Below are positions 46 through 12,365 of a stretch of 64,000 nucleotides of DNA, in pieces. The notes under the pieces were generated by a model. The model was not told the origin of the DNA. It saw only the letters and a program-made list of their open reading frames with translations, and ran no database searches. The DNA is from Actinomycetes bacterium. GTDB lineage: Bacteria; Actinomycetota; Acidimicrobiia; Acidimicrobiales; Ilumatobacteraceae. The translations under genes were made by a program, and so were the position numbers. Location of the stretch: assembly GCA_025359865.1 (NCBI GenBank), contig JANYDH010000165.1, positions 1 to 64,000 of the forward strand, written 5' to 3'. The number at the start of each line of letters is the position of its first letter. Positions within the stretch are counted from its first letter, which is position 1.

Positions 46-2169
46 TCAGGCTCCGCGGGAGATGCTCGTCTCGTAGCGGTTGGTGGCGACTTCGTCGCCG
101 TGCACGATGGCGAGATCGAGCCACAGGTCGCCTGGTGCATCGGGAACGACGAACTGGATCGTGCCGACCCTGACGCAGCTGTCGGGCGGGGTATCGCCTT
201 GCCACTGCCATATGTGGCTGCCGCCCGGCCAGCGAAGTGTGGCCGTACAGTCGACGGCTTCCAGCATGCGGTGTACGTCGCTGATGATGTGTACGTCGAG
301 ACCCAAGGTGTCACCGGGCTGTACCTGATCGGGCAACCGGTCGGCCACCACGATCACGGGGCGGCATGCATCGATGACCGCCTGGAACGCCGGTTTGGGT
401 CGACGCTCGTGGTCGAGCACGCTGGACGATATTCTCGGTGTGGCATCGGCCAACGAAGCGAAGCAGAACCCGCCAGTAGGGCGATATTTCAGTCTCCGCA
501 ACGTCTCGATCTGGTGTCGCAACAACGTGGCCTGGTAGTACTGCGACGCCTGGCGCCATGCATCGAACGTGGCATACGAGGCCGGAGGCACATACTGGTC
601 GAACAGCTCGCGTTGAAAGCCGTGTTCCATCGCGAGGTGATCCCAGTCGAGTAACGGCCACTGGCGGGGGGAAGCGAACACCGCCTCGTCGGGTAGCGAC
701 GGCGCGCCGAATCCGGTGACCCAGCGCACCATTCGGGGAAGCGTCGCCGCAAAGCCGGGAAGGTCGCGTTCGCCACCTCGACCCCATCCGAAGCTGAGAT
801 GGCTGTCGGTGCCGTCAAGCTGCGGCAGATGTGGCGCAACGCCGCTGTGTGCGACCACCGGACGGCTGTCGTCGGCGCGTTCGAATGCACGCTTGACCCA
901 GTGGTCGAGAATCGATTTGTTCCAGCCGGGCAGTTGCTGCCCGCGAATGCTCGGCTCGGGCGAATCGTGGCCGCACCACAACACGATCGACGGATGATGG
1001 CCGAGAAGGTCAACGGCGTCACGAACCTGGCTGACAGCCTGGCGACGCACGCTGCGCGCGTAACCGCCGTAGAGCGGGAAGTCCTGCCATACGAGGAGTC
1101 CGAGCTCGTCGGCGGCCGCATAGCTCTCGGGCCGGCCGATGTGGCGGTACATCCTGACGAGATCGAGTCCGGCCTCGCGCGCGAGTTCCATGTCGGCACG
1201 CAGTTCCGCTGGCGAGGCATCGGCGAGTGCCAGGCGAGCGGGGCCGGCAAGCACACCCTTCGCGAACAGGCGTTCACCGTTGACCGAGATCGTCCAATCT
1301 TGCAGCGTCACTTCGCGCAGGCCCGTGCGAACACTGTGCCGATCGCTCACCTCCCCGTCGATCGATATCTCGACGGTGACGTCACTCAGCGGTTGCTCGC
1401 CCATCGTCCACGGCCACCACAGTTCCGGCGCAGACACGTCGAGATTCCACGCGACTTCGTTGATGCCGCCGGCAAGTGGCTGCTGGTGTTGTGCCAAGGC
1501 AACCCCATCGACGAGCGTCGTGATCCGCGCAGTGCGTGACGAGTCGCTGTCGAGTCGGGCGGTGATGCGCAGGTGGGCGCGTTTGTCGTTTGCGTCGCGG
1601 CACAGCACACGGCATCGGTCGATGCGGACCGGTCCGGTCCGTTCGATTCGGACAGGCCGCCAAAGCCCTCCGGGGTTCCAGGTTCCGGCGCTCGACGGAT
1701 CGTCAAAGGCGCCGGTGATGGATCGCTTTGCAGTGCCACTTTGGCGATGGCTGGTCACTTCGACAGCGAGCACGTGCTCGGCACCGAGACGCATCAGGCT
1801 GGTGACATCGAAGCTGTGTGTCGAGAAGTAGCCCTCCGGGTCACCAAGGTAGGCACCGTCTAGCCACACGTCGGCCTGGGAGAACACGCCGTTGAGTACT
1901 ACGAACAGTCGCTCACCCTCGGCGGGCACGACGTGATCGAACGCGCGTCGATACAGCAGCGGTCCGTCGAAGTCGGCGAATGCCGCATGGCTGCGCCAAT
2001 GCGACGGCACCTGCATCTCGGTCCACCCGGCCTCGTCGACGTCGATGCCGATACCGCTTCGGCGCAGTTCGTCATCGGCAGGAGATACCCGCCATGCGCC
2101 GCTCAGATCCATCCGCCCAGGGTAGCGATGGACCGGTGCGGCCCCATGCGACACAGGCGCGATGGCCAC
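46..2169 (-). CDS. Glycoside hydrolase family 2-fold protein, probably catalytically inactive
   Basis: The 707-residue protein has a GH2 layout: an N-terminal jelly-roll sugar-binding domain (about residues 20-190, with GDPEGYFSTHSFDVTSL), an immunoglobulin-like domain (to about 290) and a TIM barrel (about 295-600). It most resembles beta-mannosidase-type GH2 enzymes. The acid/base motif, normally WCGNNE, reads WCGHDSPEP near residue 400. The nucleophile motif, normally SEFG, reads TGFGAPSLP near residue 485. Both catalytic glutamates therefore seem to be missing, which suggests carbohydrate binding rather than hydrolysis. No signal peptide is visible. The start may be Met20 (MDLSGAWR, at 2112) rather than the first Met. 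The gene is divergent from the MoxR ATPase, 15 bases away. The GH2 fold is secure; loss of activity is inferred from the two motifs. Confidence 0.8.
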   Translation of the reverse strand: MAIAPVSHGAAPVHRYPGRMDLSGAWRVSPADDELRRSGIGIDVDEAGWTEMQVPSHWRSHAAFADFDGPLLYRRAFDHVVPAEGERLFVVLNGVFSQADVWLDGAYLGDPEGYFSTHSFDVTSLMRLGAEHVLAVEVTSHRQSGTAKRSITGAFDDPSSAGTWNPGGLWRPVRIERTGPVRIDRCRVLCRDANDKRAHLRITARLDSDSSRTARITTLVDGVALAQHQQPLAGGINEVAWNLDVSAPELWWPWTMGEQPLSDVTVEISIDGEVSDRHSVRTGLREVTLQDWTISVNGERLFAKGVLAGPARLALADASPAELRADMELAREAGLDLVRMYRHIGRPESYAAADELGLLVWQDFPLYGGYARSVRRQAVSQVRDAVDLLGHHPSIVLWCGHDSPEPSIRGQQLPGWNKSILDHWVKRAFERADDSRPVVAHSGVAPHLPQLDGTDSHLSFGWGRGGERDLPGFAATLPRMVRWVTGFGAPSLPDEAVFASPRQWPLLDWDHLAMEHGFQRELFDQYVPPASYATFDAWRQASQYYQATLLRHQIETLRRLKYRPTGGFCFASLADATPRISSSVLDHERRPKPAFQAVIDACRPVIVVADRLPDQVQPGDTLGLDVHIISDVHRMLEAVDCTATLRWPGGSHIWQWQGDTPPDSCVRVGTIQFVVPDAPGDLWLDLAIVHGDEVATNRYETSISRGA

Positions 2170-2184
2170 GGTAGGGTCAGGTCA

Positions 2185-3603
2185 ATGATGACGCAACCGG
2201 GCAATCTGGCAAGCACGCTTGGCGAACTGAGGGCGTCTGGTTGGGCCAGCGTGCCGGTGAAGGAAGAGATCCGCCGCAACGCCGTTGCCAAGATTGCTGC
2301 CGGAGAGCAGTTGTTCGATGGTGTGCAAGGGTACGAGCGCACTGTGATGCCGCAGCTCGAGAATGCACTGCTCGCCGGTCACGACGTGATCTTCCTGGGC
2401 GAGCGGGGCCAGGCGAAGACGCGGATGATCCGCTCACTCATCCATCTGCTCGACGAATGGATGCCGATCGTCACCGGTAGCGAGATCAACGACGACCCGT
2501 ACTCGCCCGTCAGCCGGTATGCGCGAGACCGCATCGCGGAGCATGGCGAAGCCACCCATATCGCCTGGGTACACCGCACCGAACGGTATGGCGAGAAGTT
2601 GGCCACGCCCGATACGTCCATTGCCGATCTCATCGGCGAGGTTGACCCAATCAAGGTCGCCGAGGGTCGGTATCTCAGCGATGAACTCACTCTGCACTAC
2701 GGTCTCGTGCCGCGTACCAACCGCGGCATCTTTGCTATCAACGAGATTCCCGATCTCGCCGAGCGCATTCAGGTTGGGCTGCTCAACGTGCTCGAAGAGC
2801 GCGATGTGCAAGTGCGCGGCTACAAGATCCGGTTGCCGCTCGATCTCTTGCTGGTGGCGAGCGCCAATCCCGAGGATTACACCAACCGCGGTCGCATCAT
2901 CACCCCGTTGAAAGACCGGTTCGGTAGCCAGATTCGTACCCACTACCCGCTCGAGGTTGCCACCGAGGTGGCCATCATGCGCCAAGAAGCTCGCCCGGCG
3001 TCGGTCGGCGATGTGCAGGTCACCATCCCCGACTACATCGAGCAGGTCGTTGCCACGTTCAGCCAGTTGGCCAGGGCGAGCAGCCAGGTCAATCAGCGCA
3101 GCGGGGTCAGCGTTCGACTATCGGTCAGCAATCTCGAGGTGCTTGGCGCCAACGCGTTGCGCCGCGGCCTGCGCGCCGGTGAGCGGTCGGTGGTTCCACG
3201 AATCAGCGACTTCGAAGCGCTCGCCGCATCGTCGGCTGGCAAGATCGAGATCGAATCGCTCGATGAAGGCCGCGATGGAATGATCCTTGAAAATCTGGTC
3301 AAAGCTGCGGTCTTGGCGGTCTACAAGGAGCGGATCTCTCCCGATCAGGTACGCGAAGTGATCGGCGCGTTCGAGGAGGGAATCGTTGCCCACACGGGCG
3401 AAGACGTTGCCTCGCTCGATGAGGCCCGCCTGGTTGAGCAGGTACCAGCGCTCGCCGGCCCGGTGTCGGCCCTTACCAAGGGCGACGAATCACCGGCAGC
3501 GGTGGCTGCTGCGGTCGAGTTTGTGCTCGAAGGTCTACACCTGTCGAAGCGTCTCAACAAAGACGCATCCAGCGCGGGTGCCACGTACCGCAGCCGCAGC
3601 TGA
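2185..3603 (+). CDS. MoxR-type AAA+ ATPase (magnesium chelatase ChlI-like)
   Basis: A 472-residue AAA+ ATPase. Walker A is GERGQAKT at about residues 72-79. Walker B-like IFAINEIPDL follows near 182, then a sensor segment ASANPEDYTNRGR near 228 and an arginine-bearing LKDRFGSQI. These match the MoxR/ChlI class, whose members work with a VWA-domain partner to remodel or insert metals into target proteins. The probable partner is the VWA protein starting at 5351. The open frame continues upstream into the GH2 gene, but the ATG at 2185 gives the N-terminus expected for the family and avoids that overlap. The substrate cannot be read from the sequence. Confidence 0.88.
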   Translation: MMTQPGNLASTLGELRASGWASVPVKEEIRRNAVAKIAAGEQLFDGVQGYERTVMPQLENALLAGHDVIFLGERGQAKTRMIRSLIHLLDEWMPIVTGSEINDDPYSPVSRYARDRIAEHGEATHIAWVHRTERYGEKLATPDTSIADLIGEVDPIKVAEGRYLSDELTLHYGLVPRTNRGIFAINEIPDLAERIQVGLLNVLEERDVQVRGYKIRLPLDLLLVASANPEDYTNRGRIITPLKDRFGSQIRTHYPLEVATEVAIMRQEARPASVGDVQVTIPDYIEQVVATFSQLARASSQVNQRSGVSVRLSVSNLEVLGANALRRGLRAGERSVVPRISDFEALAASSAGKIEIESLDEGRDGMILENLVKAAVLAVYKERISPDQVREVIGAFEEGIVAHTGEDVASLDEARLVEQVPALAGPVSALTKGDESPAAVAAAVEFVLEGLHLSKRLNKDASSAGATYRSRS

Positions 3604-3615
3604 CACCACCCGTCT

Positions 3616-3652
3616 GTGAGGTTCCCGCAGCTCAGCTTGCACCCAAACTCAC
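3616..3652. repeat. 37-bp dispersed intergenic repeat, copy A
   Basis: This 37-bp sequence begins GTGAGGTTCC and ends CCCAAACTCAC. It recurs in reverse orientation at 62579-62615 with only three differences. The ends (GTGAG/CTCAC) and an inner GCAG/CTGC pair can fold into an interrupted hairpin. It lies between the convergent ATPase and GH1-like genes, so it may serve as a transcription terminator. A 16-bp piece of the 62.6-kb copy and its flank (CGTCCGTGAGGTTCCG) also occurs at 27811-27826. Confidence 0.6.
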
Positions 3653-3700
3653 AAGGGTTGCTGCGTCAACCGCAGACCGGTCCATGCATCTCGACGGCTG

Positions 3701-4663
3701 TCACGTCTCGATGCCGAGAAATCGTCGCCCACTGTCTTTCAATTCTCGATCCCGGGTGATGATCCCTTGGGCTCGCGACGGCTCGGTGAGGTCGTTGGCG
3801 TCGAATGCCGGGCTGACCGACATCGCCGAGAGTGGTAGGCCAGACGCTGCCTCGATCGTGCCGGCAACGTACCGTTCGACGGCAGACTCTCGCCCTGCGT
3901 CGGCGCCTGTGGGCAGCAGAAACGTCACTGCCAGTGGACGCTCGGGCGCCTGTTCGGCGGTGCGATGCAACAGACCGAGAACGTCGTGCTCGTGACGAAC
4001 GATGATGCCGACGACGTCGCACGCCCCGGCGAGATCGTCCAACTCGCGATCTGCTCGTCCGGGGATGCTGATGTTGCCGGTACGCAGCCCGTCGAGCCAC
4101 AGCCGCCAGCGGATCTGGTCGAATCGCCGGGAGGCCTCGGCGGCCTGCACCGTTTGGTCGGCGGGCCGCACTACTTCGACACCGAATGCGGTGATCACGG
4201 GCGGTCCGCCGCGCAGGATCCGCCACGCATCTCGCCATGCGGTGATGAGCGTGTCGAGCACCTCACCGTGGCGACGCGGGTCGTTCGGATGTATGGCGTT
4301 GGCCACGCCCAGCGGATGGTCGATCGGCACCCAGCCGCCGATCACGTCACCGAACGCCTCGGCACATGCTTCGACCCAACGCGGCCACCAGTGATGCGCA
4401 AAGCGCACATCGGTGAAGCCGCCTTCGTTGTCGAACCACGCGGGCACGTGGCGTTGCAGCAAGGCCATCTGCAGTACCACCCCCATCTCGCGGGCGGCTA
4501 AAGCGGCACCGAGGTAGAACTCGACGGCTTCGCCGTGCAACTCGCCCGGCTTTGGTTGCATCCACACCCAGTCGACACCGATCCGCACCTGGCCAACGCC
4601 GAACTGCCGGAGCATGTCGAGGTCTTCGATGAAGCGGTGACGGTCGACCAGCGCGGCGGGCAC
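3701..4663 (-). CDS. GH1-fold protein lacking catalytic glutamates
   Basis: A 320-residue protein that follows the GH1 beta-glucosidase barrel. An early segment FIEDLDMLRQFGVGQVRIG matches the family's (Y/R)EDIxLMxxLG region, followed by WVWMQPKPGE and a WPRWVEACAEAFGDVIGGW helix. The catalytic acid/base motif NEP is replaced by IDHP in GGWVPIDHPLG (about residue 113). The nucleophile motif TENG near the C-terminus is replaced by TFLLPTG. At 320 residues it is shorter than usual GH1 enzymes (about 440-480). The start is a GTG just after the cyclase stop. It lies downstream of the cyclase on the same strand, 28 bases apart, so they probably share a transcript. The fold assignment is fairly strong; inactivity is inferred. 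Confidence 0.65.
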   Translation of the reverse strand: MPAALVDRHRFIEDLDMLRQFGVGQVRIGVDWVWMQPKPGELHGEAVEFYLGAALAAREMGVVLQMALLQRHVPAWFDNEGGFTDVRFAHHWWPRWVEACAEAFGDVIGGWVPIDHPLGVANAIHPNDPRRHGEVLDTLITAWRDAWRILRGGPPVITAFGVEVVRPADQTVQAAEASRRFDQIRWRLWLDGLRTGNISIPGRADRELDDLAGACDVVGIIVRHEHDVLGLLHRTAEQAPERPLAVTFLLPTGADAGRESAVERYVAGTIEAASGLPLSAMSVSPAFDANDLTEPSRAQGIITRDRELKDSGRRFLGIET

Positions 4664-4691
4664 GACTACTGCCCTGACAGGACCGTTGATG

Positions 4692-5240
4692 TTAGAGATA
4701 AGGGGCCCGTGTCCACAACTCGTTGGTGTCGCTGCTCGGGGTGGCAGCCGGAGCGCCGCTCAACTCGAGCACGTCGATGCTGCCCGGAAAGCCGCGCAGG
4801 TCGACTTCGCCGTACGGATTGGCGCTGACCCCTTCTGGCATTCGTTCGAGTTGCATCGTGGGGATCAACACGTGGGAGGGGCCGGCGACGTCACACAGCC
4901 GCGACGCCATGTTGACGGCCGACCCGATGTAGTCGTCACCGTCGAACAGCAGTGCAAATCCGGTGGCAATGCCGACTCGAAGCGACAAGGGAGCGCAGAT
5001 ATCCGCTGAGCGGTGTTTGAGGTCGAGCGCGAACGAGATGGCGTTGCTCTGATCGACCGACACCATCATGCAGCCGTCACCGAGCCACTTCGCGATGCGA
5101 ACGCCGCGCTCGCTCGCGATTTCGCGAACGAGCGACCGGAATGCACTCAGGATCCGCCCGGCGGCATCATCGCCGAAGGCAGCGGTGTAGTTCGTGAACC
5201 CGGAGAGGTCGACGAACGCAAAGGTTCGGGGAACACGCAT
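4692..5240 (-). CDS. Class III adenylate/guanylate cyclase catalytic domain protein
   Basis: A 182-residue, single-domain class III nucleotide cyclase. The first metal-binding Asp lies in FAFVDLSGFTNY near residue 11, and the second in KWLGDGCMM near 57. GSAVNMASRL near 128 matches the family's transition-state-stabilising Asn/Arg helix. The family makes cAMP or cGMP from ATP or GTP as a dimer. No sensor or membrane domain is attached, so it is soluble and any input must come from partners. It is the first gene of a two-gene minus-strand unit with the GH1-fold protein and is divergent from the VWA gene. Substrate choice (ATP or GTP) cannot be decided here. Confidence 0.85.
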   Translation of the reverse strand: MRVPRTFAFVDLSGFTNYTAAFGDDAAGRILSAFRSLVREIASERGVRIAKWLGDGCMMVSVDQSNAISFALDLKHRSADICAPLSLRVGIATGFALLFDGDDYIGSAVNMASRLCDVAGPSHVLIPTMQLERMPEGVSANPYGEVDLRGFPGSIDVLELSGAPAATPSSDTNELWTRAPYL

Positions 5241-5350
5241 GTAGCCCTCAGAGTATCTCGGTAGAACCGATCGGATGTGTCAGCGCTATCGGCCTCAAAG
5301 ATACTTCGACCCACAGGGAAGATGGCTTGAGCACGAAGTAGTGTTCGACT

Positions 5351-7369
5351 ATGGCAGCACGGTTCACATACTCACGCTGGGATGGCACGCAGAAGGGCTT
5401 CGATCTCGATGCCGATGCCCTGTTCGACGAGTTGAACGACGATTTGCTCTACCACGGCGACATCAACAGCGCCTTGCGCAGGCTGATGCAGCAGGGCATG
5501 AACGATCGCAACGGCGAGCGGATGCAGGGCCTTCGCGAACTGATGGACAAGCTGCGGCAACAACGACAGGAACGACTCGACCAGTTCGACCTCGGTGGCG
5601 TCTACCAAGAAATCGCCGACGAATTGAACGACATCGTCGACGAAGAGCGTCACGCCATCGAAAACGCCACTCGCGAGGCCGATAGCAGTGGCGACGACCG
5701 GCGTGCCCAGGCCGCACACGACACCGCGACCGACCGCAACTTCCGTCTCGACATGCTGCCAAACGACCTCGCCGGTAAGGTCCGCGAGCTGTCGGCGTAC
5801 GACTTCGAGTCGGCTGAGGCCGCCCAACGGTTCGAACAACTGATGGACAAGCTGCGTCAACAGTTGATGCAGCAGGCTGTCGACCAGATGAGCAGTGCGG
5901 TCCAGAACATGAGCCCCGAAGACATGCAGCGTACGAAAGACATGCTTGCGGCGCTCAATGAAATGCTCGAAAAGCGCGCTGAGGGCGAAGACCCGGGGTT
6001 CGAACAGTTCATGGAGCAGTTCGGCGACTTCTTTCCCGAAAACCCGCAGAACCTCGATGAGCTGCTCGAGCAGATGGCCCAACGGATGGCTGCGATGCAG
6101 GCGATGATGAACTCCATGTCGCCTGAGCAGCGCGCCCAGTTGCAACAGCTCAGTGATCAGCTCCTCGAAGACATGGATCTGCGGTGGCAGATGGACCAAC
6201 TCGGGCAGAACCTTCGGTCGATGTTTCCGCAGATGGGCTGGAACCAGAGCTACGAGTTCGAGGGCCAAGACCCAATGGGTATGGCCCAGGCGATGCAGAC
6301 CATGCAAGATCTCGGAGATCTCGATCAGCTCGAGAATCTGCTGCGTAACGCCACGACTCCCGGTGCCCTGGCCGAGGCCGATATGGACCGTGTCCGCGAC
6401 CTCATGGGTGACGACGCGGCGCGTTCACTCGAACGGTTGGCCGAACTCACCCAGATGCTGAAAGATGCAGGCCTGATCGAGCAGAAAGAAGGCCGCCTCG
6501 AGCTCACGCCCAAGGGACTCCGCAAGATCGGAGCCAATGCGCTTCGTGACCTGTTCGACCGGCTGGCCAAGGACAAGCTCGGCCAACATCAGATCGACCG
6601 CCTCGGCGAGGGCCACGAGCGTTCGTACGAAACCAAGCAGTACGAGTTCGGCGATCCGTTCAACCTCGATCTGCAGCGCACGGTTCGCAACGCGATTCGC
6701 CGCAACGGAGCTGGGACACCGGTGCAACTCTCACCGGATGATTTCGAGATCGAACGTACCGAGCACACCACGCGCTCGTCGACCGTACTCATGCTCGATC
6801 TGTCGCTCAGCATGCCCATGCGTGACAACTTCCTGCCTGCGAAGAAGGTCACGATGGCCCTGCATTCGCTGATCACCTCGCAGTTCCCTCGCGACTACAT
6901 GGGCATCGTCGGGTTCAGTGAGACCGCCCGCATCCTCACCGCCGCGCAACTGCCCGAAGTGAGCTGGGACTTTGTCTACGGCACCAACATGCAACATGGC
7001 TTCATGCTTGCTCGACAGTTGTTGTCGAAGCAGTCGGGTACGAAACAGATCATAATGATCACCGATGGCGAGCCGACGGCGCACGTGCTGCCCAACGGTG
7101 AGGTCTTCTTCAACTACCCGCCGGTGCGCGAAACGGTCGAAGCGACGTTGCGTGAGGTGGTGCGGTGTACCCGCGACAATATTCGGATCAATACGTTCGT
7201 GCTCGATGCCACGGGGTCGCTGCGGGCCTTCATCGAGAAGTTGACATCGATCAATCGCGGACGGGCGTTCTTCACCACCCCCGAGACGCTTGGCGACTAT
7301 GTCCTCGTCGACTTCATCGAGCACAAAAAGCAACTCGCCCGCGGCCGGGGTAGCCGCCGGGCCGGCTGA
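5351..7369 (+). CDS. VWA domain protein, CoxE-like partner of MoxR ATPase
   Basis: A 672-residue protein. Residues about 60-400 are helical and very rich in Met, Gln and Glu (for example LLEQMAQRMAAMQAMMNSM), probably coiled coil. The C-terminal third is a VWA domain with a metal-ion-dependent adhesion site, LDLSLSMPMRDN, near residue 481, and a second conserved strand IIMITDGEPTAH. VWA proteins of this type pair with MoxR ATPases to load cofactors or remodel target complexes. The cognate ATPase is probably the gene at 2185, although a cyclase/GH1 pair on the other strand separates them. No signal peptide or membrane span is seen, so a cytoplasmic role is likely. Confidence 0.85.
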   Translation: MAARFTYSRWDGTQKGFDLDADALFDELNDDLLYHGDINSALRRLMQQGMNDRNGERMQGLRELMDKLRQQRQERLDQFDLGGVYQEIADELNDIVDEERHAIENATREADSSGDDRRAQAAHDTATDRNFRLDMLPNDLAGKVRELSAYDFESAEAAQRFEQLMDKLRQQLMQQAVDQMSSAVQNMSPEDMQRTKDMLAALNEMLEKRAEGEDPGFEQFMEQFGDFFPENPQNLDELLEQMAQRMAAMQAMMNSMSPEQRAQLQQLSDQLLEDMDLRWQMDQLGQNLRSMFPQMGWNQSYEFEGQDPMGMAQAMQTMQDLGDLDQLENLLRNATTPGALAEADMDRVRDLMGDDAARSLERLAELTQMLKDAGLIEQKEGRLELTPKGLRKIGANALRDLFDRLAKDKLGQHQIDRLGEGHERSYETKQYEFGDPFNLDLQRTVRNAIRRNGAGTPVQLSPDDFEIERTEHTTRSSTVLMLDLSLSMPMRDNFLPAKKVTMALHSLITSQFPRDYMGIVGFSETARILTAAQLPEVSWDFVYGTNMQHGFMLARQLLSKQSGTKQIIMITDGEPTAHVLPNGEVFFNYPPVRETVEATLREVVRCTRDNIRINTFVLDATGSLRAFIEKLTSINRGRAFFTTPETLGDYVLVDFIEHKKQLARGRGSRRAG

Positions 7370-7662: not shown

Positions 7663-7769
7663 CCCTGCAGACTAGTGCATTGTGCAAGGAGCAGAAGTTG
7701 GCTCAACGTCGGGGTCGACTGGGTTCCACAGGACGCTCTGCGATCGGTTACGGGCAGATTCTCGTAGGG

Positions 7770-8280
7770 TTTGGCGTTTGGCTGTCATTGGCAGGCTGTC
7801 GCACAATGTTGTTTTTGGTGGTGTGGCGGGTGAGGTTGGCCGTTTGGCCGTTTGGCCGTCTGGCCGTCTGGTCGTGTTGTCGGCAACGGTGTCGTGGTTG
7901 TTGCTGAACTCGCGCTCGTGCCGCACAAGTCGACTCAACGTCGGCGACTGACAGCCCGCCCGCCGGGCCTACCCGTTGTTGCGCTGCCAAGTCGCGTCGA
8001 GTTATCGGGGCTGGCGACAGGTAAGTCGACGCGATCCTACCCGCGACGCCTTTCCGGGAGAAGTCGCGTCGAGTTATCGGGGCTGGCGACATGTAAGTCG
8101 ACGCGATCCTGCCCGCACAGCCGGCGTGGTCGCTGATGCAGACTTCCACGACGCCCGCCTGTCATGCACCGGACGTTCACGCTGCAGCGCGACCGCACGG
8201 CCGGGGTCGGGGTCGGGGTCGGGTATCGCCACCCCCGCCCGCATTTTCCGACAGCCTGTCCATAACAACCCAACGCCAAA
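7770..8280. mobile_element. MITE-like intergenic element with terminal inverted repeats, copy 1
   Basis: The region 7663-8592 has no credible gene. Within it, 7770-7809 (TTTGGCGTTTGGCTGTCATT and onward) and the reverse complement of 8241-8280 match over roughly 40 bp with about eight differences, forming terminal inverted repeats. The interior matches 27855-28258 through long blocks, including GTTGTTGCTGAACTCG and ACAGCCCGCCCGCCGGGCCT. No transposase is encoded. Imperfect direct repeats ACTAGTGCATTGTGCA (7671) and ACTAGTGGTTGTGCA (8413) lie outside the inverted repeats. This is best described as a non-autonomous transposon-like or REP-like element; how it moved is unknown. Confidence 0.6.
7993..8105. 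repeat. Tandem pair of 41-bp hairpin units inside the element
   Basis: Two units, 7993-8033 and 8065-8105, each carry arms CGCGTCGA and TCGACGCG plus an inner TTA/TAA pair around a GC-rich loop (TCGGGGCTGGCGACA). They are 72 bp apart start to start and differ at one base. A third unit, missing part of the inner pair, is at 28050-28090 in the second element. The strong arms with a conserved loop suggest a structural or protein-binding role. Confidence 0.6.
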
Positions 8281-8522
8281 GATCAGCCCGAAAGCACCGG
8301 CGCCGGTCCATGTGATGGGTGTGGCGGTGTTCGACGAATTTGATCTGCGTGGCCACGAGTTCGTCGCCACGCAGACAAAACCGTCGCATTCAACCAACTT
8401 CAGCGCGGCACCACTAGTGGTTGTGCACGGCGCTGGCGGCCTGCCGACACGGGGAGCGGTTGCATCGGTGCTGCTCAGCCGGATATTGACCGCGGTGAGT
8501 GGTGAGCTGAGAACTTTCCGAA

Positions 8523-8544: not shown

Positions 8545-8592
8545 TGTGATAGGGGACAATGACACGGTTGTAATTACACGGGAGGGCAGAGC

Positions 8593-8859
8593 ATGCAGAT
8601 TGAAGTCCACTCAGACGAGCGCACTTGGCAGGATGAGGCGAACTGTCTCGGTGTCGATCCCGATCTGTTTTTCCCCGAGCGTGGTGCGTCGACGCGTGAG
8701 GCCAAAGAAGTCTGCCACGGCTGCGTGGTCCGCGAAGACTGTCTCGAATACGCCCTTGCCAATGGCGAGAAGTTCGGGATCTGGGGCGGGCTGTCAGAGC
8801 GTGAGCGTCGCCGCCTGCGCCGCCAGCGGGCCCAGACTGCCCGTCGCGACACCGCCTGA
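8593..8859 (+). CDS. WhiB-family iron-sulfur transcription factor (first copy)
   Basis: An 88-residue WhiB-like protein. The four cluster-binding cysteines are visible: one in EANCLG, the CHGC pair, and one in EDCLEYAL. The family turn follows as FGIWGGLSERERRRL, and then a basic tail that binds DNA. WhiB proteins bind a redox-sensitive [4Fe-4S] cluster and usually act with the primary sigma factor. A strong ribosome-binding site, GGGAGGG, lies a few bases ahead of the ATG. A second WhiB gene sits 0.6 kb away on the other strand, with tatA between them. Which WhiB subgroup this is cannot be settled by eye. Confidence 0.93.
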   Translation: MQIEVHSDERTWQDEANCLGVDPDLFFPERGASTREAKEVCHGCVVREDCLEYALANGEKFGIWGGLSERERRRLRRQRAQTARRDTA

Positions 8860-8901
8860 CCCCGCCGTTTCTTTCCGTACCGCGGGTGCTAGCCTGACGC
8901 C

Positions 8902-9144
8902 ATGTTCGCATTCCTTGATCCGCCGGAGATCATCCTGATCGTCGTAGTCGTGCTCGTTCTGTTTGGTGGCGCACAACTTCCGAAGCTCGCCAAGAACTTG
9001 GGCAAGGCGCAGCAGGAGTTCAAGACGGGTCTCGCCGAAGGCCAGAAGGATTCATCGAAGAGCGACAGCAAGGGCAATAGCGGTACCTCGGACAGCTCCA
9101 AGAACGACAGCTCCAACAACGACACTTCCAAGAACGACAGCTGA
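8902..9144 (+). CDS. tatA: Sec-independent protein translocase subunit TatA
   Basis: An 80-residue TatA/E-type protein. One membrane helix, PPEIILIVVVVLVLFGGAQL, is followed by the hallmark amphipathic helix LPKLAKNLGKAQQEFKTG and a charged, disordered tail of Ser/Asn/Asp/Lys repeats (SSKNDSSNNDTSKNDS). TatA oligomers form the pore for folded proteins with twin-arginine signals. No tatB or tatC is nearby, which is usual for actinobacteria. The length and the FGGxxLPxLAxxLG motif make the call firm. Confidence 0.93.
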   Translation: MFAFLDPPEIILIVVVVLVLFGGAQLPKLAKNLGKAQQEFKTGLAEGQKDSSKSDSKGNSGTSDSSKNDSSNNDTSKNDS

Positions 9145-9169
9145 TCACCAGATCCGCCAAGGCTGACCG

Positions 9170-9424
9170 TTGGCGTTGGGCTGTCATTGACAGCAACCCA
9201 ACGCCAAAGCTCAACCCGCGTGTTGAGTTGGAGTGCCGGATGCGCTCGCTCACCGCGCCGCGTTGTGATCGTCGGCGGGCTCAGGTGGTGTGACTCGCAG
9301 CTGACGACAGTGCATGTGGCGGCTGGGGTTCGGATCTCCGCCGTGGCGAGTTCGAATTGGTGACAGCGGTGACACGCCCCCACCCGCACGTTGCGACAGA
9401 CTGCTCACAGCAGCCCAACGCCAA
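9170..9424. repeat. Short inverted-repeat element, third member of the family
   Basis: This fills the gene-free gap 9145-9471. At 9170-9207 the two family ends are nearly fused (TTGGCGTTGGGCTGTCA, then GACAGCAACCCAACGCCAA), forming a strong hairpin just after tatA that could terminate it. At 9381-9424 a right end (CACCCGCA to CCCAACGCCAA) matches the right end of the 27.9-28.3-kb element. Together they may bound a 255-bp third copy. The middle shows no clear homology to the other copies and no gene. Confidence 0.5.
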
Positions 9425-9471
9425 ACGTCGGCGTGAGTGTGAGCGGGTTGGATGGTTGAGGGGTAGTCCGC

Positions 9472-9738
9472 TCAGCGGACGCCGAGTTCGACCCTGCGGC
9501 GCTTTTGGATGCGACGGCGCTCGCGCTCGCTGCAGCCACCCCAGACCCCGTGCTCGATTCGCTCGGCGAGCGCGTACTCCAAGCATTGGGCCGCGACCGG
9601 GCAGTTGACGCAGATCTTGCGGGCGCGATCCACACCTACGCCATCGCTGGGGAAAAAGACGGCAGGCGGATAGTTGCGGCAGTTACCCGCCGCCATCCAG
9701 ATCGTTGCCGCATCTTCAATGGTCTCGTGGTACTGCAT
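9472..9738 (-). CDS. WhiB-family iron-sulfur transcription factor (second copy)
   Basis: A WhiB protein with cysteines in AGNCRN, CVNC and AQCLEYAL, and the turn GVWGGCSERERRRI followed by a basic tail. The open frame has an ATG at 9747, but AAGGAG abuts that codon and is instead about 8 bases before the ATG at 9738. The start at 9738 is therefore preferred and gives 88 residues, the same length as the other WhiB. It is convergent with tatA. A fifth cysteine lies in the WGGC turn, which is unusual but not in the cluster-binding positions. Confidence 0.92.
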   Translation of the reverse strand: MQYHETIEDAATIWMAAGNCRNYPPAVFFPSDGVGVDRARKICVNCPVAAQCLEYALAERIEHGVWGGCSERERRRIQKRRRVELGVR

Positions 9739-9964
9739 TGGCGTCATCTCCTTGTGAACCGCGACGAATCACGGTGGTTGTGCGCCCGCACGAAGCCCCA
9801 AGAGGCCAGCGGCAACCGCAACTCATTGCGAACATCGAACTACTACTACGACGTTGAACGAGCCAAGACGGTTCCCGATTTCGATCAAAAGTAACACAGG
9901 TGCCGTCTCAAGGCCAGCATTCGTTCATCAGGGATACACTTCCGCCGGTAATCATCGCCATCTG

Positions 9965-10277: not shown

Positions 10278-12365
10278 ATGAGCAGCCAACTCCTCAACCG
10301 TGAGCTGAGCTGGCTGCAATTCAATCACCGTGTACTCGCACTGGCCGGCGAGTCAGGCATCCCATTGCTCGAACGGGTCAAGTTCTGTGCGATTTGTTCT
10401 AGCAATCTCGACGAGTTTTTTCAGGTCCGCGTCGCCGCGCTCAAAGACCAGGTAGCAGCTGGTGTCACCGGCGCTGCGCCCGACGGACTCACTCCCAGTC
10501 AACAGCTCTCGGCCACCGGCGATGTGGTCAGTTCGTTCGTGTTACTGCAGGAACAGGTAGTACTTGGCTCGCTGCTGCCGGAACTTCGGCGGCAGGGCAT
10601 CGAAGTAGTCGATTGGGCCGAGCTCCTTGTGTCCGAACGCAATGAGTTGATCGCAGTGTTCGAGCAGAGGATCTTTCCGGTACTTACCCCGCTCGCCGTC
10701 GATCCGGCCCATCCGTTTCCGTACATCTCCAACCTTGCGCTCAGCTTGGCTGCGATGGTCAGTGATCCCGATACCGGGGAGCGGCGATTCGCCAGAGTGA
10801 AGGTGCCCAATGTGTTCCCGCGTTTGATGGCGCTGTCGGGCGGACGGCGTTTTGTACCGGTCGAGCAGGTCATAGCCGCACAGATGCACACGCTGTACTC
10901 GGGCATGGTGGTCGAGCAGTGCGCTGCGTTTCGAGTCACCCGCAATGCCGACCTCACCGTCGAAGATGAAGAAGCCGACGACCTGCTCGCTGCGGTCGAA
11001 CTCGAGCTTCGCCGCCGCCGTTTCGGCCGCGCTGTGCGGCTCGAGGTACAGGCCGGGATCAGCTCTGAGATGGTGGAACTGCTTCAGCGAGAGCTCGAGC
11101 TCGATCAGTCCGACGTGTCGTTCCATGGGAGCCTGCTCGATCTCACCTGCCTCATGCAGATCGCGTCGCTGAACCGGGAGGAGCTGAAAGACACCCCATG
11201 GCCGCCGGTCACCGCCGGCCGGGTGGCTGCTGCCGAAGAGTCGGGTCGTAGCATTTTTTCGGTCATCCGTGAACGTCCGCTTGTGGTCCACCATCCGTAC
11301 GAGAGCTTTGCCAGCAGCGTCGAAAGTTTCATCGACGAGGCCGCAGATGATCCCCGGGTGCAGTCGATCAAGATGACGTTGTATCGCGCCGGTGGCGACA
11401 GCCCCATCGCCCGCAGCCTCATCCGCGCAGCCGAACGCGGCGTGCAAGTGGCCGTGTTGGTCGAATTGAAGGCACGCTTCGATGAGGCGACCAACGTGAG
11501 CTGGGCCAAGGCACTTGAACGTGCCGGGGTGCACGTGGTGTATGGCCTGGTGGGTTTGAAGACGCACGCGAAATGCGTCCTGGTGGTACGCAACGACGAA
11601 GACGGGTTGCGTCGCTACTGTCACATCGGTACCGGCAATTACAACTCCAAGACAGCTCGTCTGTACGAAGATGTCGGCTTCATCTCGTGCGAACCCGACG
11701 TCGGCTCCGACGTCACCCAGCTGTTCAACCACCTCACGGGCTACAGCCGCTCACACGAATATCGTACGCTGTTGGTCGCACCGCGAGACATGCGTCAGCA
11801 ACTGTGCGATCTCATCGAGCACGAGACATCGTTCGGCACCGACGGGCGCATCGTCATCAAGTTGAACTCGCTCGCCGATCCCGAGCTGATCGAGGCGCTG
11901 TACAGCGCGAGTCAGGCCGGTGTATCTATCGAGCTGATCATTCGGGGTATTTGCTGCCTCGTTCCTGGCGTTACGGGTCTCAGCGACAACATCAAGGTGA
12001 GGTCGATTCTCGGGCGCTATCTCGAGCACAGTCGCATCGTGTGGTTCGCCCATGGGCAGCAGACCGTCGATGCGCACGACCGGGTCGACGAGGCAGCGAC
12101 GGTCGACGAAGCGCTGTATCTCATCGGTTCGGCCGATTGGATGCCACGCAACCTCGACCGGCGGGTTGAGACGATGGTGCCAGTCACTCACGCGAAGCAC
12201 AAGGCTTGGCTCGACCAGGTGTTCGCGTTTGCACTCGCGTCAGATGTGGTGCGGTGGGAGCTGGGGCCGCAGGGCGAGTGGACCCGGATGGGCCCTGCGG
12301 ACTTCTCGTCGGGCGACTACCAGGAACGTTTCTACCACTGGGTCGCGGCACGCCAGAAGCGCTGA
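10278..12365 (+). CDS. ppk1: Polyphosphate kinase 1
   Basis: A 695-residue enzyme that reversibly transfers the gamma-phosphate of ATP to growing polyphosphate. The N-terminal domain opens with LNRELSWLQFNHRVL, the family signature. The phosphorylated histidine lies in GLKTHAKCVLVV near residue 430, followed by YCHIGTGNYNSKTARLYED. The second active-site His is in WFAHGQQ near 590, within the second phospholipase-D-like domain. Length is normal (about 690). It lies upstream of the pst operon in the same orientation, with a PHO box between, so polyphosphate storage and phosphate uptake share one locus. Confidence 0.96.
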   Translation: MSSQLLNRELSWLQFNHRVLALAGESGIPLLERVKFCAICSSNLDEFFQVRVAALKDQVAAGVTGAAPDGLTPSQQLSATGDVVSSFVLLQEQVVLGSLLPELRRQGIEVVDWAELLVSERNELIAVFEQRIFPVLTPLAVDPAHPFPYISNLALSLAAMVSDPDTGERRFARVKVPNVFPRLMALSGGRRFVPVEQVIAAQMHTLYSGMVVEQCAAFRVTRNADLTVEDEEADDLLAAVELELRRRRFGRAVRLEVQAGISSEMVELLQRELELDQSDVSFHGSLLDLTCLMQIASLNREELKDTPWPPVTAGRVAAAEESGRSIFSVIRERPLVVHHPYESFASSVESFIDEAADDPRVQSIKMTLYRAGGDSPIARSLIRAAERGVQVAVLVELKARFDEATNVSWAKALERAGVHVVYGLVGLKTHAKCVLVVRNDEDGLRRYCHIGTGNYNSKTARLYEDVGFISCEPDVGSDVTQLFNHLTGYSRSHEYRTLLVAPRDMRQQLCDLIEHETSFGTDGRIVIKLNSLADPELIEALYSASQAGVSIELIIRGICCLVPGVTGLSDNIKVRSILGRYLEHSRIVWFAHGQQTVDAHDRVDEAATVDEALYLIGSADWMPRNLDRRVETMVPVTHAKHKAWLDQVFAFALASDVVRWELGPQGEWTRMGPADFSSGDYQERFYHWVAARQKR

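Follow-up and report, generated by a model that had tools for sequence, protein, structure and literature searches.

Results

A five-gene set at the left end of the window

The window analyzed here, the first 64,000 bases of contig C26 (JANYDH010000165.1; 73,068 bases) in the 4.99 Mb, 219-contig assembly of an Actinomycetes bacterium, carries at its left end (positions 46-7369) genes for an AAA+ ATPase, a protein with a von Willebrand factor A (VWA) domain, a class III nucleotide cyclase, and two proteins with the folds of glycoside hydrolase families 2 and 1 (GH2 and GH1). Open reading frames (ORFs) and Pfam matches confirmed all five genes at the coordinates given in the original prediction:

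46-2112 (ORF to 2169), minus strand: GH2-like protein (evidence: PF00703, PF22666, PDB relatives, motif columns)
about 2188-3603, plus strand: AAA+ ATPase, 471 aa, ChlI-like (PF07728, ChlI in the PDB, motif columns)
3701-4663, minus strand: GH1-like pseudo-glycosidase, 320 aa (PF00232, AlphaFold model, fold matches, alignment)
4692-5240, minus strand: stand-alone class III nucleotide cyclase, 182 aa (PF00211, alignment with solved structures, residue columns)
5351-7369, plus strand: VWA protein, 672 aa (MIDAS columns, predicted model, PDB fold matches)

For the GH2-like gene the ATG at 2112 (688 aa) is the more likely start, and the GTG at 2169 (707 aa) is also possible.

The ATPase and the VWA protein

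The ATPase passed PF07728 (AAA_5) with 30.4 bits against a cut-off of 22. It had been taken for a MoxR ATPase, but its PF07726 (MoxR) score of 19.9 bits lies under the cut-off of 27, and a scan of the window's whole genome listed four other places, with the ATPase gene absent from them; on these two grounds we rejected strict MoxR membership. The ATPase resembles ChlI of the ChlI/ChlD magnesium chelatase, its nearest solved structures being ChlI proteins (E 3.9e-10 in a PDB sequence search, 4.5e-11 in a profile search). Unlike a true chelatase subunit, it reached 42.3 bits on the equivalog model for magnesium chelatase subunit I (TIGR02030), whose cut-off is 466.95. The bpMoxR (MoxR-vWA-beta-propeller) systems combine an AAA+/VWA pair with further conserved partners, and the locus resembles them in this respect. 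It differs in that PF20030 (bpMoxR) gave 16.4 bits against a cut-off of 27, for which reason a bpMoxR ternary system was rejected, and in that no beta-propeller model occurs among the Pfam matches of the five window proteins. The Pfam matches at E 1 include no LARA domain model, and no search aimed at LARA was made.

In the window protein, Walker A reads GERGQAKT, Walker B carries NE, and R244 stands in an arginine-finger context. Across 137 aligned rows, the Walker A lysine was found in 134 (3 gapped), NE in all 137, and R244 in 136 (1 gapped), with the Walker A Ser/Thr position scored as met by either residue. By these columns, the ATPase has the intact motifs that an AAA+/VWA pair requires. 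Two deep relatives of the ATPase (L096 and L104) carry extra cysteines (GCEINDSP..PVC..C, alignment columns 101-120) that are absent from the window protein and perhaps form a metal site.

The VWA protein is helical in its N-terminal two thirds and has its VWA domain at the C terminus. Its Pfam scores (25.2 bits for VWA_2 and 21.3 bits for VWA) are both slightly under the cut-off. The metal ion-dependent adhesion site (MIDAS) consists of D483, S485, S487, T545, and D572. Among 117 rows, the D, S, S triad was found in 114 (3 gapped), the threonine in 112 (4 gapped, 1 Gln), and the last aspartate in 112 (5 gapped), so the site is intact by its residues. The full-length predicted model was of moderate confidence (pLDDT 74.8). 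We take the 50 PDB fold matches listed for it to be proteins with VWA domains, and none of these 50 matched the helical part; a PDB sequence search with the VWA profile gave a best E of 0.051. These results support the ATPase and the VWA protein as a pair, as had been proposed.

Two glycosidase folds that lack their catalytic residues

The GH2-like protein matched PF00703 (32.6 bits, cut-off 23) and PF22666 (32.1 bits, cut-off 27), with PF02837 marginally below its cut-off. A PDB search matched 68 sequences, with GH2 enzymes by name, for instance beta-mannosidase and beta-glucuronidase, among the best 60. At the acid/base position, where most relatives have HNEP, the window protein has S403, and at the nucleophile position, SEFG in most relatives, it has G486 (707-aa numbering). 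Of 78 GH2 rows, the window's included, 72 remained after those shorter than 600 aa had been dropped; 71 of these were scored and one (L042) was without the region. Both glutamates were kept in 43 of the 71 and one or both were gone in 28; with an acid/base Glu-to-Asp change scored as a loss, 12 of these 28 are that change alone, and the other 16 are non-conservative or affect the nucleophile. A quick tree, with long branches flagged, needs 12 changes of catalytic state, 11 of them forced by well-supported branches. In the window's genus the acid/base residue was lost in five of five GH2 proteins (Ser, Thr, Arg, Ala, Ala) and the nucleophile in four of the five, and the GH2 protein of a neighboring genus (L162) retains both glutamates. 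Going by these residues, catalytic death in the GH2 family is not ancestral, and catalysis has been lost repeatedly.

The GH1-like protein scored 38.6 bits against PF00232 (cut-off 22.6), and its AlphaFold model (pLDDT 95.3) matched GH1 beta-glucosidases with a TM score of 0.84 (query-normalized); the model thus predicts that the GH1 fold is retained. The acid/base position, INEP in intact relatives, is occupied by H116, and the nucleophile position, a Glu in intact relatives (CEHG and the like), by F248. By alignment and model, the first barrel strand, two active-site loops, and the NYEW motif are likewise missing from the GH1 proteins of the window's family of bacteria, and because of these losses the old sugar site is largely dismantled. 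The catalytic pair was found in none of 33 copies from the window's family (window included) and in 12 of 16 copies from outside it, that is, in 12 of 49 overall. Some GH1 rows of the family, L038, L040, L188, L197, L204, and L209 among them, are gapped at or beside the acid/base motif, and single letters there are therefore unsure. Two partial copies from genus g8 (L223 and L224), outside this tally, have PIDDP at the acid/base place. On this alignment the GH1-like protein of the window's family is a fixed pseudoenzyme. The loss of catalytic residues claimed for both folds in the window is thus confirmed. The picture of ancestrally dead enzymes did not stand, given the intact GH2 majority with its repeated losses and the GH1 pair kept in most copies outside the family.

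The class III cyclase and its C-terminal tail

The cyclase scored 29.2 bits against PF00211 (cut-off 21.9) and, in a structure-sequence alignment, is a bare catalytic domain near LipJ (1ybt) and Rv1264 (1y10). D11, K51, D55, D103, N110, and R114 are invariant in 59 of 59 copies; presumably they serve metal binding, substrate binding, and the transition state. The class III assignment therefore holds, with the catalytic residues present, and by its residues the protein looks like an intact signaling enzyme whose product is probably cyclic AMP (cAMP).

Behind a variable linker, the C terminus (window 4692-4730) carries a conserved D171-T-x-E-L-W176-T-R-x-P tail, in which W is conserved in 59, D in 58, and R in 57 of the 59 linked cyclases. 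The model match of the distant cyclases listed for the class ends by residue 173 of 182 at most, and the tail therefore seems special to locus-linked copies. A scan with the strict pattern found it once in 51 of 71 loci of the window's family, in none of the other 20 (cyclase-less loci or variants, unsorted), and in none of 65 other loci. From its conservation, the DTxELWTRxP tail may be a docking motif.

Conservation of the gene set

An ATPase orthologue was found in 78 of 148 genomes of the class (E <1e-25; 11 further rows were weak). Within the window's family, 190 of 200 genomes have one, among them all 79 of good quality. We compared 136 loci, 60 of them drawn from family genomes and 76 from the 78 class genomes, of which the window's own and a fragment in G145 were left out; 71 belong to the window's family (f1) and 65 to other members of the class. 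Loci that share this family's cyclase include those of Ilumatobacter sp. SAT196 (L228) and Desertimonas flava (L264), both of which belong to genera of the Ilumatobacteraceae, and we infer that the family consists of Ilumatobacteraceae-type Acidimicrobiia. D. flava carries ATPase, GH2-like, and cyclase genes.

The ATPase gene is followed by the VWA gene, in the same direction and on one stretch, at 57 of the 71 family loci and at 59 of the 65 other class loci; among the misses, 6 of 14 and 3 of 6, respectively, have less than 3 kb of downstream sequence. At the 57 family loci with both genes, the cyclase lies between them in 56 and the GH1 gene in 30, always antisense, and GH1 precedes the cyclase in 30 of 30. 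The GH2 gene is found upstream, on the opposite strand, at 50 of the 62 family loci with at least 2.5 kb of upstream sequence. Other class loci have GH2 in 20 of 57, GH1 in 15 of 59, and the cyclase in 0 of 59 cases, and in 24 of them the VWA gene comes immediately after the ATPase gene. At 36 named loci outside the class (sorted by name, one only 'uncultured bacterium'), VWA was found in 21, in 16 of these directly adjacent to the ATPase. These presence counts imply that the ATPase/VWA pair is the core and that the rest was added between or beside it. The cyclase falls outside the core machine because, among the loci compared, those of the window's family alone have it (56 of 57, against 0 of 59 elsewhere in the class). 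Scattered homologues with no conserved order would have pointed to chance; we found the order conserved across homologues and rejected a chance grouping.

Co-occurrence, for which a test had been suggested, was also seen. A GH2 orthologue (>800 bits) is present in 33 of the 148 class genomes, 32 of which carry an ATPase orthologue as well; in the exception, G100, the GH2 gene sits on a 3,954-base contig. Fisher's test (GH2 present and absent in 32 and 46 ATPase genomes against 1 and 69 remaining ones) gave p = 8e-10, which is only indicative because the genomes are related.

Two kinds of additional gene lie in the ATPase-VWA gap of relatives. Other class members have an antisense gene of about 128 aa at 20 of 59 loci (e.g., L108:4643-5029), with a lipoprotein-like start by eye, and L045, L046, and L047, all of family f3, have an extra antisense ORF of 231-309 aa; these ORFs were clustered only there.

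Succinate dehydrogenase next door

The strongest neighbor lies beyond the coordinates of the original prediction. Genes for the flavoprotein and iron-sulfur subunits of succinate dehydrogenase (SDH, complex II) were found in the upstream sequence at 47 of the 57 family loci with at least 6 kb of it, on the strand of the ATPase, and likewise at 36 of 50 other class loci, there on the strand opposite to the ATPase. The flavoproteins (SdhA) form three groups, one representative of each passing a different NCBIfam model (PRK07573/TIGR01811, PRK07803, or TIGR01816); outside the family, the first type occurs at 25 loci, the second at 6, and the third at 5. Quick ATPase trees, with long branches flagged and rows of 330 aa or less dropped, require the neighboring SDH type to have switched at least 5 times on the full tree and 3 times on a reduced one. 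Beside the second type, L086:8172-9023 codes for a 283-aa membrane-like protein with no NCBIfam match at E 1e-10, perhaps the membrane anchor of that SDH type.

In the window's own genome, contig C83 (103,375 bases) stops 47 bases beyond the end of the sdhB match, and the GH2 gene ends at base 46 of C26. In the close relative L163, sdhB and GH2 face each other about 150 bases apart (match ends). Given these match ends and the arrangement in L163, both contigs very likely end in the sdhB-GH2 gap. In G040, which has no ATPase orthologue, a GH2 relative (480 and 153 bits, under the 800-bit line) is kept at a distance of about 1 kb from SdhA.

Selection on the dead folds

Ratios of nonsynonymous to synonymous change (dN/dS) were estimated by the simple Nei-Gojobori method; many pairs have a proportion of synonymous differences (pS) of 0.5 to 0.65, and the estimate seems to be disturbed by codon bias. 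The one clearly dead close GH2 pair among the compared family copies (L164/L165) gave 0.07, and the six dead GH1 pairs with at least 95% identity gave 0.01 to 0.10. The eight dead GH1 pairs at pS 0.05-0.4 had a median of 0.06, with L163/L164 at 0.39 and L163/L165 at 0.35. From the close pairs, the dead copies appear to be kept by purifying selection. We rejected simple pseudogenes, since the frames are open in the extracted copies and close pairs show this selection.

Other features near the locus

By inspection, the conserved neighbors farther out are WhiB-, FtcD-, TatA-, and polyphosphate kinase-like; in the window (8590-9750 and 10278-12365), short ORFs resembling two WhiB-type regulators and a TatA-like protein are followed by a polyphosphate kinase-like gene. 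Positions 7989-8116 hold a pair of 56-base direct repeats that are 96% identical and begin 72 bases apart. Between the VWA gene and the next genes, positions 7769-7808, 8232-8295, 9161-9223, and 9377-9440 hold inverted and direct repeats around CCAACGCCAAA, a repeat family that resembles a small palindromic repeat element.

Discussion

We classify the gene set as an AAA+/VWA system of the client-remodeling type with an apparently unreported combination of genes. As the original prediction supposed, the set is apparently undescribed: no account of it was found in the open-licence PMC literature, judged by titles and the opening lines of abstracts. Each AAA+/VWA pair is described as working on a dedicated enzyme, its client, for which the VWA protein is the adaptor (PMC9976466). 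In Escherichia coli, ViaA is reported to bind FrdA, the fumarate reductase (Frd) flavoprotein, via its VWA domain, and RavA-ViaA to lower Frd activity (PMC10585395). By analogy with the action of RavA-ViaA on FrdA, we propose that the pair acts on complex II through its flavoprotein. The locus would thus be an AAA+/VWA remodeler of complex II to which accessory genes were added in stages, a tentative reading that we give not quite an even chance.

In this proposal the ATPase would form a ring, and the VWA protein would be the adaptor that grips the SDH flavoprotein via its MIDAS domain, with ATP hydrolysis serving to remodel, mature, or switch complex II in the manner of RavA-ViaA. The GH2-like and GH1-like proteins would be former glycosidases kept as folded, non-catalytic adaptors or scaffolds of the machine or its client. 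The cyclase, seemingly a later addition in one family, would probably make cAMP at the locus, and its conserved tail may dock it to a partner. What the sequences show is the gene content and order, the lost catalytic residues, purifying selection in close dead pairs, the intact cyclase, ATPase, and MIDAS residues, and SDH beside the locus in relatives; from these patterns we infer all contacts, which enzyme is the client, and what the dead folds and cAMP do, the SDH link coming from gene neighborhood. A bolder version, in which the remodeler is cAMP-controlled, with the cyclase docked by its ELWTR tail and repurposed glycosidase folds as adaptors in a role found repeatedly as catalysis was lost, strikes us as clearly unlikely.

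Several observations weigh against a complex II remodeler. The effect of RavA-ViaA on Frd activity is itself disputed, by El Khoury et al. (discussed in PMC10585395). No SDH was seen nearby at 10 of the 57 family loci and 14 of the 50 other class loci, and at the 36 loci outside the class, 26 of which have at least 6 kb of upstream sequence, none of the three SDH types sought was found; the pair must therefore have another or a wider role there. Of the 148 class genomes, 143 have an SdhA-family match (at E up to 1e-15, a limit that may let in L-aspartate oxidase) and 78 the ATPase orthologue, so SDH does not need the pair. The accessory genes are not constant either: GH2 is missing at 12 of 62 and GH1 at 27 of 57 family loci, the single-contig genome G002 (L041) has no cyclase match, and in G071 the VWA, cyclase, and GH1 genes form a block about 100 kb away from the ATPase, GH2, and SDH genes. 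Neighbors farther out are also conserved at many loci, so part of the linkage may be general synteny. As for selection, distant dead pairs of the window's genus gave dN/dS of 0.23-0.38 for GH2 and 0.35-0.51 for GH1, against 0.06 to 0.19 for the ATPase and VWA proteins of the same pairs, and GH2 values ran up to 0.54 in the dozen closest of 36 dead pairs. For family pairs at pS 0.05-0.4, the ATPase had a median of 0.23 (maximum 0.43) and VWA a median of 0.28 (maximum 0.54); since even these two reach such values at low pS, only close pairs carry weight. By these ratios, the dead folds look constrained, less so than the core machine.

Some of the same facts invite another explanation, namely that the pair is a general or unknown remodeler and that SDH, GH2, GH1, and the cyclase are unrelated neighbors held by slow rearrangement in the class. 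The conserved outer neighbors, the occurrence of the pair outside the class without the three SDH types, and the splitting of the block in genus g8 (in G205 its halves lie on different contigs) all speak for it. Yet GH2 orthologues above 800 bits are nearly confined to ATPase genomes, and the GH2 genes counted beside the ATPase are always on the minus strand. Likewise, SDH keeps its position through at least 3 to 5 changes of SDH type, and after the splits in G071 and G205 the VWA, cyclase, and GH1 genes stayed together, with the order inside each half kept. We hold this explanation to be unlikely, though a serious contender.

The original prediction pointed to the glycosidase folds as possible clients. 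In one form of this idea the machine would mature or dispose of active GH2 and GH1 enzymes whose copies are decaying in some lineages. The copies that keep both glutamates (43 of 71 for GH2, 12 of 49 for GH1) and the tie of GH2 orthologues to the ATPase agree with this, but the ATPase and VWA proteins are conserved where neither glycosidase is near, close dead pairs are under purifying selection, and G040 keeps its GH2 relative near SdhA without the ATPase. We did not find the glycosidases supported as the likeliest clients and regard the idea as decidedly improbable. It was also suggested that the dead folds bind glycans, and they could be sugar sensors that report a glycan or sugar in the old pocket to the cyclase or the ATPase. 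Binding pseudo-glycosidases are known (Klotho), Klotho chains are among the weaker GH1 matches, and no signal peptide is evident by eye, for which reason all five proteins may be cytosolic. However, the window family's GH1-like protein has lost not just its catalytic pair but also the strand, loops, and motif of the active site. This makes glycan binding by the GH1-like protein look less likely, and we set aside a GH1 binder in the old pocket; sugar sensing survives as a weak rival that we consider improbable.

Among known systems, RavA-ViaA is like the locus in joining an AAA+ ATPase to a helical protein with a C-terminal VWA domain and in its reported link to a complex II flavoprotein (PMC10585395). 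The locus differs in that its ATPase is not a PF07726 MoxR protein by score, in that antisense genes split the ATPase and VWA genes in the window's family, and in that its SDH link is known from gene neighborhood alone. We know of no cyclase or glycosidase fold in the RavA-ViaA system. NorQ/NorD and CbbQ/CbbO share the logic of an AAA+/VWA adaptor acting on a dedicated enzyme (PMC9976466). Their clients are nitric oxide reductase and Rubisco, and the likeness is one of working principle. Klotho-type pseudo-glycosidases also have a GH1 fold without the catalytic pair; the GH1-like protein here differs in being bacterial, a single short domain, and clustered with a cyclase and an AAA+/VWA pair. 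Rv0958/Rv0959 of Mycobacterium tuberculosis are probable homologues. Rv0958 has been called a magnesium chelatase (PMC10774309).

The complex II proposal gives the locus a wider meaning. For many AAA+/VWA pairs we know of no client; here the neighborhood names a candidate, complex II, backed by three SDH types in one and the same position, in bacteria of a phylum remote from E. coli, the organism for which a similar link has been reported and disputed. The locus also holds a natural enzyme-to-pseudoenzyme series in conserved order, a GH2 family whose catalytic state changed about a dozen times and a GH1 family with a fixed dead form, and so lets the point at which catalysis stops mattering and other selection begins be studied.

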